Below, piece after piece: positions 12,588 through 16,693 of a stretch of DNA of 64,000 nucleotides. Source of the stretch: a virus; the IMG/VR virus record IMGVR_UViG_3300009593_000010, positions 1-64,000 of that record; one strand, given 5' to 3'. Made by a program: the position numbers and the translations under genes. The notes under the pieces are model-generated. The model was not told the origin of the DNA. It saw nothing but the letters and a program-made list of their open reading frames with translations, and searched no databases. How positions within the stretch are numbered: the stretch's first letter is position 1; every line of letters starts with the position of its first letter.

Positions 12588-14726
12588 CTATAGTTGTTGG
12601 GAAACTCCCTTCTCTTCGTTTAATGCTTCAACTATCTGAATATTCTTAGTTATATTATTAACTGGATTAGTTGAAGATAATACTTGGTTTATATTTGCAC
12701 CACCACCTTGTTGCATTGATCTACCATCTGCAATCGTTCTTGCAGATTCAGTTAGTGTTGAACCAGATGTTGAAGGAACTATAACTGTTCCCATTGTTGC
12801 AACATTCATTGATGGTGTAATAACAAGACCATCTATTGAACCCAAAGTCTCTAGTCCAGACCTAAAGTTTGCAAGTGCATCCTTATCAAATCCGTCTAAT
12901 GATTTCTTGAGTATATCAAAACTATCTGCAACTGCCTTAACTGAATTTGCCTTACCTTCAAAGTTATCTGGAAGATCACCAACTTCTCTTAATAGGTCAA
13001 TTGGTGAATTACCTGTTAGATTATCCCACCAACCTATATCTGCACCTTTTATCCCAGAGAACATACCAAATCCTTTTGCAACACTTTCAATTGCAGGGCC
13101 CATTTTTACTAATTTTTCACTCTTAATATCTTGTAATCTAATTAGATTATCAACCATACCATCTAATGGAGAATGTCTATCAAAGAATGTTGTTGGAACA
13201 GAGGAGACTAGTTTTGTTATTTCTGCACTGACACCAGCAAGATTTTTGATATTGTTCTTTATTATATCGGTGTCTAATTCTGCAAAGGGTTTAACATCCT
13301 TTGCAAATCTACCTAAAGATGCACCTAATGCTAACAACATAACAGATAATGTTGCAATCCCAGCAGCTGCAACCAATGCTCCTACACCACTAGAAACTAA
13401 CATCCCAACTACAGCTACTAGTGCAGTTAGTCCTGTCATTGATGCAAGTATATCCAACATGGGTAAGTCTGCAAATGATTGCATTCCATCGAATGCTCCC
13501 ATTTTTTCACCAAGTGCAAATGCACCAAAGATTGCAAGGAGACCTAATCCGAGTGCAGCTCCACCAGCAATAATACCTATTGCACCTCTCGTCATTGCAG
13601 CGGAAAATGCAACTAGACCTTTTGCTGCAACCATAAGTCCTGCCCCAGCAGGCCCTGCAGAGACGGCTGCAACACCTAAGAATGCAGCTATACCCAACAA
13701 TCCTTTTTCTTTGATTGTTAGATCACTATCTTCATCAACTTCTAAAGATTTACCTTCTTCCTTCTTCCTACCTTCTTTTAATTTTGACCTAGCATTCTTC
13801 TCTCTCTGAGATGCATCTGCCTTTAACTTCTTCTTATCTAAAACATTTCCTTCTTTTTGAAGTTTTGCCATTGTGTCGAGAGCTCTCTTTTGAGCTCTTG
13901 CACCTTTCAATCTTACATATGTTTCTGCAATAAACTTTTTCAATAAGTTTCCAACAAAACTAGATATAGTACCAAGAAATGGTATGTTATTAACAACCAT
14001 ACCTATACCACCAGAGATTCTCATCATGTCTCCTTTAAGACCAGATGCTAAATCTGATCCTATGGAACCCATTGTTATATCTTTTTGCCAACCTTCAATT
14101 GTCCCACCTAGTTTTTCCATGTATGCTGTAAAATTTTTATAAGAGGGTGTCATATCTCTCAATATCTCTTTCATAGGTTTATGATACTGTTTACCAGTTA
14201 ATACTTCCTGTTGAAGTACCTTCTCTCTTAACAAGAGGTCTTTGAAGTTTGAATCTTCGATCTTACCACCAGTGACCTCAAGATTTTCAGAAATTAATTT
14301 TATAGCATCTTGAGTCTCAACTAATGCAAATTTACTCTCTCTTTGGATTGCTCTTTCTTCGTCAGTTTTACCATCAAGTTTATTGATTAGATCGGTGACT
14401 CTTGCTTTTTCTCCCTCTTCGGTTAAGTGACTTCCACCAGTAAATCTACCTTTTTTATCACGATTCATCTTGCTGTTATTAATATCCATTCCAGATCGTG
14501 TTTTAGCAGACTCCTCACTATTGTCTTTAATAATCTTACCCAACTCAGCAAAGTTTTGTGCAGTTGCAAGTTTCTTTTGAAGTGCAAGGTCTTCTTTATC
14601 AAGTGCTAACCTTTCCTTCTGAACAATTAAATCTTCATTGGACTGTTGTTGTTCTAGTTTTTGATATTTACTATCTGCTGCAGCCTGTTTCTTCTGTTGG
14701 TCTTTAATGTGTTGGTCAGATGACAT
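12588..14726 (-). CDS. Tail tape-measure protein candidate (gp29 position)
   Basis: A 712-residue protein with a long N-terminal coiled coil (about 1-75, Lys/Gln/Glu-rich), a basic middle, a very hydrophobic Ala/Gly-rich region at about 340-480 and a helical C-terminal part. This layout, with membrane-active hydrophobic helices in the middle, is typical of tape-measure proteins, which set tail length and are ejected into the cell envelope. Gene order supports it: it comes after the gp26/gp51 chaperone pair, as tape measures generally follow their frameshifted chaperones. Length is near T4 gp29 (590 aa). I see no sequence motif that proves it. Confidence 0.65.
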   Translation of the reverse strand: MSSDQHIKDQQKKQAAADSKYQKLEQQQSNEDLIVQKERLALDKEDLALQKKLATAQNFAELGKIIKDNSEESAKTRSGMDINNSKMNRDKKGRFTGGSHLTEEGEKARVTDLINKLDGKTDEERAIQRESKFALVETQDAIKLISENLEVTGGKIEDSNFKDLLLREKVLQQEVLTGKQYHKPMKEILRDMTPSYKNFTAYMEKLGGTIEGWQKDITMGSIGSDLASGLKGDMMRISGGIGMVVNNIPFLGTISSFVGNLLKKFIAETYVRLKGARAQKRALDTMAKLQKEGNVLDKKKLKADASQREKNARSKLKEGRKKEEGKSLEVDEDSDLTIKEKGLLGIAAFLGVAAVSAGPAGAGLMVAAKGLVAFSAAMTRGAIGIIAGGAALGLGLLAIFGAFALGEKMGAFDGMQSFADLPMLDILASMTGLTALVAVVGMLVSSGVGALVAAAGIATLSVMLLALGASLGRFAKDVKPFAELDTDIIKNNIKNLAGVSAEITKLVSSVPTTFFDRHSPLDGMVDNLIRLQDIKSEKLVKMGPAIESVAKGFGMFSGIKGADIGWWDNLTGNSPIDLLREVGDLPDNFEGKANSVKAVADSFDILKKSLDGFDKDALANFRSGLETLGSIDGLVITPSMNVATMGTVIVPSTSGSTLTESARTIADGRSMQQGGGANINQVLSSTNPVNNITKNIQIVEALNEEKGVSQQL

Positions 14727-14736
14727 TTCTTATTTC

Positions 14737-15123
14737 CTAATTTGGGTTGTTGTCGCCGTGTTCTTTTGCAGCCGAGTTGACATAAAGTCCAAACCATGCA
14801 GCTCCAGCACCTACCAATATGGATATCAGTCCAGATTGTTCTAATGTAGGGGCCTCTAATTCCATGAACCAGAATGTTGAAAAATAGAGTAGGTACATAT
14901 ATACACCTAAGAATAATCTTGGTATGATTCTCCATGCATCCATAGTCTTAGCTGCATGAATCCACTTCTGCCATGGATTTCTTTTATCCTCTAATTCTGG
15001 GTCTGTTGCTTCCCTTAGTTTATCTTTTAAGTCAGATATCTCTGCTGACATGCTCATGAACTTATCCAGATCAATCTGGACTTCGTTTCTAGTCATGTCT
15101 CCTACAATTCTATCATCACTCAT
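14737..15123 (-). CDS. Holin-like membrane protein
   Basis: A hydrophilic, coiled-coil-prone N-terminal half with DPELEDKRNPWQKW is followed by two membrane helices at about 66-86 and 97-115 (the second is GLISILVGAGAAWFGLYV) and a short polar tail. I recall the DAWRIxPRLFLxVY and GAGAAWFGLYV patterns from T4-type marine phages, where the protein is often labelled holin or left unnamed. The AGGAG site before the ATG is strong. Its place between gp51 and the tape measure is also consistent with a tail-assembly or membrane-anchor role. Confidence 0.6.
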   Translation of the reverse strand: MSDDRIVGDMTRNEVQIDLDKFMSMSAEISDLKDKLREATDPELEDKRNPWQKWIHAAKTMDAWRIIPRLFLGVYMYLLYFSTFWFMELEAPTLEQSGLISILVGAGAAWFGLYVNSAAKEHGDNNPN

Positions 15124-15155: not shown

Positions 15156-15355
15156 TTATCTCGCATTCTTCTGTTGTTTGAGTCTCATCTCTTCCTCTTC
15201 TAACCATTGAGTGAGAAGAGTTATGTATAACTCCCTTTCCCAAGGCTCCATTCCTTCTAATTCATTCAGACTGTATTTGTGATGTTGTATCATCGCAAAG
15301 TTTGTCTGCATATAATTAGCTAATGTTTCATGAGAAAGGGTTATCCGAAAAAATT
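15156..15355 (-). CDS. gp51: gp51-like extension reached by -1 frameshift from gp26
   Basis: This frame is open across the gp26 stop codon. It encodes RITLSHETLANYMQ, then IQHHKYSLNELEGMEPWERE and a charged helix, ending at 15156. The sequence resembles gp51 (hub assembly catalyst) of T4-type marine phages as I recall it. An ATG at 15311 gives a 51-residue stand-alone product but has no ribosome binding site, and the residues before it look like real protein. A -1 slip in gp26 would give a fusion of about 298 residues. The last helices would be the tape-measure-binding part if this pair acts like the lambda G and GT chaperones. Confidence 0.75.
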
Positions 15356-16051
15356 TTGAAGTCCCTCAACCTCTATGCTATTTTCGTATCCACACTTCTC
15401 GTCTTTACAAACAAATTTAATATCATATCCAAGTCTGGGTAAATTTTCAAAGAATTTTGACATCTTCTCAAATTGTTCCCCAGTTAACCCATCCATGAAT
15501 TGACCTAACTCTTCAATATCAAAATCATCTCTTGTATGAACCTCTTCTTTATCGAAGATATTAACAATACACATTTCAACCATTTTAAATAGTATCTCAG
15601 TATTCAACTCTGGGGATACTTCCATCAGAGATTCAACTGCACCAAAGACTGGTGGTTGCATTGTCACACCAATGTCATCAGTTAATTGGACAACTGTTTG
15701 TCCATTACCTTCTGCATTCTTCATAACAACTTCTTCTAGGTTAACTGTCACTGCATTGGGTGTTTCACAAATATCACATGGATAACTGATAACACTCGTC
15801 TCACCAACAGACTTCATTCTTATCTGTATAAACAGATATTCTACATCAGGGCCTGGCAGAAATTTTATATCAACATCTGAACAAGACTGTGTAATATTAA
15901 ACAATGAACTTGCAATAACTTTTGCACTTCCATCCTCTAATGCTTGTAATAGAACCTTTTGTTCTTTTACTGTAAAGGGATGGATTTTAACCTTCTCTTT
16001 ACTTACTGGTAGTTCAACTTCATATTGAACTTTGTTTACTTGTGGTAACAT
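15341..16051 (-). CDS. gp26: gp26, baseplate hub / tail assembly chaperone
   Basis: The 236-residue protein matches T4-type gp26 in length (208 in T4), in its N-terminal start (VELPVSKEKVKIHPFTVKEQK) and in a zinc-ribbon-like pair of cysteine pairs: Cys92 and Cys95 in PCDIC, and a C-terminal CKDEKCG. gp26 is needed for assembly of the baseplate hub. Its last codons carry a slippery run that leads into the gp51-like frame, the layout of a tail assembly chaperone. A GGAG site precedes the ATG. Confidence 0.85.
   Translation of the reverse strand: MLPQVNKVQYEVELPVSKEKVKIHPFTVKEQKVLLQALEDGSAKVIASSLFNITQSCSDVDIKFLPGPDVEYLFIQIRMKSVGETSVISYPCDICETPNAVTVNLEEVVMKNAEGNGQTVVQLTDDIGVTMQPPVFGAVESLMEVSPELNTEILFKMVEMCIVNIFDKEEVHTRDDFDIEELGQFMDGLTGEQFEKMSKFFENLPRLGYDIKFVCKDEKCGYENSIEVEGLQNFFG
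15347..15356 (-). promoter_or_regulatory. Programmed -1 frameshift site at the end of gp26
   Basis: Leftward the sequence reads A AAT TTT TTC in the gp26 frame, containing two overlapping X XXY YYZ heptamers (A AAT TTT and T TTT TTC). It sits two codons before the gp26 stop. A one-base backward slip enters the gp51-like frame without interruption. Confidence 0.7.
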
Positions 16052-16084: not shown

Positions 16085-16693
16085 CTAACCAAACAATTCG
16101 TTATTTAATTTCTCTTGAACTTTTCTTCCAAGTTTCTTTCCTACTTTACTAAGGAATCCACCAATAAGACTACTAGAGCCTGCATTGGGGTATTCTGAAT
16201 AGAAGTTTCTATACATAAATTGACAACTAACTTTTTGAATAGAACTATCATCTTGACTGAATGCCATTGAACTTATTTGCATAGGAAATGCCTCAACCAT
16301 TACAGTTCTCATAATACATTGACCATAATGGTCTAGTTGTTCTAAATATATTGTACCTTGATAATCATCATGGTATCTATTCATAAATTCTGGGAATGGA
16401 CTAAATATTTGTTCTTGCCAAAGATCAATTATCCTTCTATCTTCCATTCTATTATCTAATCTAAAGACACAATCAAATGGATCATACTGAGGTGCAAGGG
16501 GAACTGTTCTTCTTGGGCCATGATCTGCTGGTGTTGCAGTCATAAATCCACGGCCTGGATGAGATGCACTCTCACATCTAATTCCTCTTAATTTTAGTCC
16601 CTTTACCTTATTTCCAACACCAAAGATTGCAACATTAAACCTGTTAGGTCTTGCCATCGAGTCATATTGTGATTTAAATTGGTCTATCTTCAT
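16085..16693 (-). CDS. gp54: Tail-tube-fold baseplate protein (gp54-like)
   Basis: The 202-residue protein has the look of the gp19/gp48/gp54 tail-tube family: MARPNRFNVAIFG at the start, then YDPFDCVFRLDNRMEDRRIIDLW, then strands ending in KVSCQFMYRNFYSE, and a basic C-terminus. The tube gp19 is usually next to the sheath gp18, which would lie beyond gp17, and gp48 is found nearby at 17765, so gp54 (tube initiator on the baseplate) is the best fit. Its ATG overlaps the stop of the gene upstream. If gp19 were absent elsewhere in the genome, this would be the tube protein instead. Confidence 0.6.
   Translation of the reverse strand: MKIDQFKSQYDSMARPNRFNVAIFGVGNKVKGLKLRGIRCESASHPGRGFMTATPADHGPRRTVPLAPQYDPFDCVFRLDNRMEDRRIIDLWQEQIFSPFPEFMNRYHDDYQGTIYLEQLDHYGQCIMRTVMVEAFPMQISSMAFSQDDSSIQKVSCQFMYRNFYSEYPNAGSSSLIGGFLSKVGKKLGRKVQEKLNNELFG

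Follow-up and report, generated by a model that had tools for sequence, protein, structure and literature searches.

A probable −1 frameshift joins gp26 and gp51 into one tail assembly chaperone gene in a divergent T4-like phage

Organization of the gp26–gp51 junction

The window, a 64,000-nucleotide stretch of a 129,558-base viral record, belongs to a phage with at most 38% identity to named phages. Its minus strand carries a gp26 homologue, the only PF12322 gene in the record, and an overlapping second frame that a gene finder calls gp51. The junction comprises the following features:

15341..16051, minus strand: gp26 homologue, short form (TAC-N, the lambda gpG equivalent), 236 aa; PF12322 E 1.6e-50, phrog_150 E 2e-52
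15362..15367, minus strand: GAGGGA, Shine-Dalgarno-like, probable stimulator upstream of the slip site, at the peak of mean anti-Shine-Dalgarno pairing
15350..15356, minus strand: A_AAT_TTT, overlapping heptamer, not conserved
15347..15353, minus strand: T_TTT_TTC, slippery heptamer, conserved shift site
15156..15347, minus strand: −1 frame extension, the gp51 domain, 63 aa plus stop; phrog_634 E 1e-24
15156..15311, minus strand: gp51 as called by the gene finder, 51 aa from its ATG, no ribosome binding site, probably not an independent gene

The last codons of gp26 read GAG GGA CTT CAA AAT TTT TTC GGA TAA. In the −1 frame, no stop occurs from 21 nt ahead of this stop codon until 15156-15158, where that frame terminates. 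A backward slip on T_TTT_TTC would continue the chain as FF|RITLSHE..., adding 63 residues and giving a predicted long form of 298 aa (TAC-NC, the gpG-T equivalent). Both parts are homologous to the T4 gp26/gp51 family (PF12322, phrog_150, phrog_634), and the extension's match to phrog_634, the baseplate hub assembly catalyst, starts upstream of the annotated gp51 ATG. A sequence-only reading of the window had proposed such a frameshift at two overlapping heptamers placed two codons before the gp26 stop. Both heptamers are present and lie close before that stop, but the slip site ends one codon (GGA) ahead of it.

The gp26 protein (15344-16051, minus strand) also contains CxxC-type motifs, PCDIC and CKDEKC, and several relatives score against zinc-ribbon models.

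Conservation of the slippery heptamer

Relatives were collected by an IMG/VR scan keyed on a protein motif near the gp26 N-terminus rather than on the slip site. It yielded 80 loci, one of which (L012) is a near-copy of the window itself. All 80 have T_TTT_TTN in frame, 9-18 nt ahead of the stop, and a −1 frame that reads on into gp51 uninterrupted. Elsewhere in these genes the in-frame heptamer occurs 14 times in 18,560 codon positions, a chance rate of about 0.0045 per 6-codon window. The same site is found in S-WAM2, S-RIM8, Melnitz, HTVC008M, Cr30, Cronobacter S13 and Menderavirus BUCT608, as well as in Ceceduovirus and Schizotequatrovirus phages, with Kyanoviridae among the named carriers. 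A second, more distant scan recovered it in 30 of the 31 non-Ackermannviridae loci examined, the 31st being incomplete. Comparison with relatives, the check suggested for the proposed frameshift, thus bears out the core of the proposal: across the 80 loci, the named phages and 30 distant loci, both the slippery run and an open −1 frame are retained. Of the two heptamers, T_TTT_TTN is the conserved one, since A_AAT_TTT turns up in just about 9 of the 80 loci. In E. coli, U_UUU_UUY does not rank with the strongest shift sites.

Codon statistics were compiled over 81 loci, non-redundant at 70% and with a mean pairwise identity of 37%. The codon preceding the heptamer's Phe pair encodes varying residues (N/S/D/G/A/R) and is always NNT (log10 P −17, from pooled codon usage and ignoring phylogeny). 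The first Phe is TTT in all 81 loci (log10 P −11.5, phylogeny likewise ignored), although TTC makes up 28% of Phe codons. These patterns bear on whether the T run reflects nothing beyond protein conservation, namely a C-terminal FF motif in AT-rich genomes. FF is indeed conserved and the genomes are mostly AT-rich, yet this explanation is scarcely credible. It does not account for a preceding residue that changes while its codon always ends in T, or for the missing TTC at the first Phe. Moreover, the second position is Leu (TTA) in four loci, the site persists at 48% GC in S-CREM2, and T4-type gp26 has GLKEFFELL encoded with TTC TTT. A conserved frameshift site remains the preferred reading of the T run.

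Coding evidence for the gp51 frame

GenBank records give gp51 as a separate short gene, and in a few phages its ATG overlaps or closely follows the gp26 stop (TAATGA in K475, L008; also Cr30, L006). It is nevertheless very unlikely that gp51 is an independent gene, whether initiated at an ATG of its own or translationally coupled to the stop of gp26. In the window, anti-Shine-Dalgarno pairing upstream of the first gp51 ATG (15311) is +0.4 kcal/mol, against −6.4 at the gp26 start. Averaged over loci, it is −0.60 kcal/mol at the gp51 ATG, compared with −6.17 at gp26 starts, −4.45 at the next genes and −1.47 at random internal ATGs, so the gp51 ATG is weaker even than the last. The earlier statement that gp51 lacks a ribosome binding site of its own therefore stands: none is seen in the frameshift group, every locus of which also keeps an unbroken frame from the gp26 stop to the gp51 ATG.

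Additionally, the residues encoded between the slip site and the gp51 ATG are conserved (L 93%, N 92%, F 96%), and the conserved −1 residues (L..S-H..L..N-F) lie upstream of the first ATG in most loci, which also argues against initiation there. The −1 frame shows its lowest variability at codon position 2. Judged from these sequence comparisons, the second frame is conserved as protein without a start of its own. An independent gp51 would further leave unexplained both the T_TTT_TTN in every locus and the collinear match of T4 gp51 across the junction, described below, whereas translation of the −1 frame by ribosomal slippage accommodates them.

A likely stimulator upstream of the slip site

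Averaged over loci, anti-Shine-Dalgarno pairing peaks once in the vicinity of the slip site, between about −15 and −8 counted from the heptamer, with a mean of −6.3 kcal/mol. The observed pairing is −6.38, against −5.16 ± 0.16 (sd) when synonymous codons are resampled. The Glu codon in the element is GAG rather than GAA in 26 of 51 cases, against a background of 23% (p 1.8e-5). Lying some 10 nt ahead of the slip site, such a GAGG-like element is likely to stimulate the −1 shift, and 5' Shine-Dalgarno stimulators are known for dnaX and many IS elements (PMC5009743). The distant environmental loci L142-L171 have the slip site without the Shine-Dalgarno-like element.

The downstream structure signal is weak, with a mean z of −1.31 versus −0.47 in the control (mononucleotide shuffles) and −0.76 for the window alone. 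Downstream RNA structure was set aside as the main stimulator on account of this weak signal.

Transcriptional slippage is possible on poly-T runs, and RNA polymerase slipping on this one would generate mixed messages, with the long form made from edited RNA. That origin is highly improbable here: the run is mostly just six T before a C (51 of 81 loci), and its phase is fixed (NNT TTT TTN), a requirement of slipping ribosomes but not of slipping polymerases. The anti-Shine-Dalgarno element near the slip site likewise speaks for the ribosome rather than the polymerase.

Ackermannviridae variant

In Ackermannviridae (L009, L095, L096, L097 and L116-L135), the −1 gp51-like domain is kept and no canonical X_XXY_YYZ heptamer is present. 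Their junction reads [A/G]TT TTC AT[T/C] followed by the stop. In Serratia phage 3M it reads G_GTT_TTC, which we take to resemble the T7 gene 10 shift site. Use of a T7 gene-10-like [G/A][G/A]TT_TTC site by this family would be a further split.

Relation to T4 genes 26 and 51

PF12322 recognizes both T4 proteins, gp26 (208 aa) with E 9e-64 and gp51 (249 aa) with E 4e-52; an alignment between the two gives E 2e-6. A phrog_634 match covers 147-246 of gp51. In profile comparisons, T4-type gp51 matches the in-silico joined product of the marine phages from one end to the other, junction included (E 5e-26, 242 columns), and T4-type gp26 aligns with that product only as far as the junction. With the joined product collinear with T4 gp51, and T4 gp26 ending where the junction lies, genes 26 and 51 of T4 appear to be duplicates, one the short form and the other the long form. 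The FF-containing C-terminus of T4 gp26 is still there, but its codons are not slippery.

In the phylogenetic tree, T4-type 26 and 51 group together (97/96), separate from the frameshift genes, and 51 forms a clade of its own (100/99). In AU tests, branching of either paralogue first was not rejected (p 0.14); the gp26 of RB43 is a long branch. On balance, we lean slightly towards the combined proposal that the conserved GAGG, ending about 8-10 nt before the site, stimulates the shift and that a single duplication of the frameshifting gene, accompanied by loss of its slip site, gave T4 its two genes.

RB43 (L099:3501-4794) has two tandem PF12322 genes on one strand, the short gp26-like gene directly after the long gp51-like gene and followed by gp25; in T4, genes 26 and 51 are divergent.

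Proposed mechanism and known systems

Taken as a whole, the sequence evidence makes it very probable that gp26 and gp51 form a single tail assembly chaperone gene, with a short and a long form produced from one message by a −1 slip. A single message could supply both forms because ribosomes would sometimes slip back one base before the stop of the short form. We infer that the shift occurs, and likewise its rate, the effect of the stimulator and the mode of chaperone action, along the following lines. The majority of ribosomes would terminate at the gp26 stop and release the 236-aa short form. A minority would be paused by anti-Shine-Dalgarno pairing with GAGGGA, about 10 nt upstream, and would move back one base on T_TTT_TTC, producing the 298-aa long form with its helical gp51 tail. 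If the pair works like lambda gpG/gpGT, the tape measure may be coated by the short form and connected to tube and hub assembly by the long one. In T4 and its nearest kin, which have lost the slippery site, each of the two proteins would come from a paralogous gene of its own, 26 for the short and 51 for the long.

The lambda gpG/gpGT system, located close to the tape measure gene, is alike in pairing a short form with a long one made by −1 frameshifting. It differs in slip site (G_GGA_AAG in lambda), sequence and apparently fold family, and the window has a 128-aa gene before its candidate tape measure. No connection between PF12322 and the lambda-type chaperone families emerged from sequence searches, and a sequence search for solved structures found none. 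E. coli dnaX has an A_AAA_AAG site and a strong downstream hairpin, unlike the window's family with its weak downstream structure signal. An upstream Shine-Dalgarno stimulator acts in dnaX (PMC5009743), at a spacing similar to that of the probable one here. In the TAC locus of Vandenendeviridae and Andersonviridae (Adele, PMC12846349), a −1 shift likewise takes place on poly-T, close to where the short form ends. The motif there is GTTTTT, unlike the window's, and the likeness noted is one of locus layout.

T4 gp26 and gp51 are listed as hub assembly chaperones, gp51 being needed for assembly and absent from the particle (PMC3004832). The chaperones of T4-like phages have already been identified (Vladimirov, Gautam and Davidson 2022, Virology 566:9-15, cited in PMC10885494 and PMC12846349). 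As the citing papers relate it, some T4-like phages have a short gene plus a fused long copy (PMC10885494), and polyT slippery signals are known in the short genes of T4-like phages (PMC12846349). The chaperone role assigned to the pair from sequence is thus supported both by homology with T4 gp26/gp51 and by this published work, to the extent that the citing papers convey it. Because those papers report fused copies and polyT signals, the core finding of a frameshift chaperone in T4-like phages is mostly known. The window contains the same protein families and represents a divergent new member from the environment that uses the frameshift form.

The frameshift reading would also explain two oddities. 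T4 is listed as an exception to the conserved G/GT frameshift of long-tailed phages (PMC5009743), and cyanophage gp51 is said to lack its first ~200 residues (PMC3037559); the missing residues would be gp26. If they are joined by frameshifting, the database starts of gp51 would be wrong in hundreds of marine phages. Much of this explanation is probably in the 2022 Virology paper already, judging from the papers that cite it. What is usefully added here is the likely stimulator upstream of the site and the wide occurrence of the site among environmental phages.

Neighbouring genes and the candidate tape measure

Three further genes flank the junction:

16085..16693, minus strand: gp54-like tail tube initiator or tube-fold protein, upstream of gp26; phrog_45 tail tube E 2.6e-21
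14737..15123, minus strand: 128-aa probable membrane protein, phrog_10198 (unknown function), with a good ribosome binding site of its own (−7.3 kcal/mol)
12588..14726, minus strand: 712-aa candidate tape measure, from its position, long size and hydrophobic middle

The chaperone pair had been placed just before the tape-measure gene. A 712-aa protein does lie downstream and fits by position and make-up, but the 128-aa gene sits between it and gp51. Profile comparison of the 712-aa protein with T4 gp29 found no homology, and tblastn among phages gave no match. With no gp29 homology and a gene in between, the tape-measure label follows from position and make-up. HTVC008M and Melnitz have short genes at the same spot as the 128-aa gene.

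The gene after gp26/gp51 encodes 1565 aa in S-CREM2, whose tail is 418 nm long, versus 812-855 aa in S-RIM8 and S-WAM2. The difference has the direction expected from tail length and falls below strict proportion. In S-CREM2 (L115:45484-49001), this 1565-aa gene, right after gp26/gp51 and in the tape-measure place, is annotated as an endolysin.
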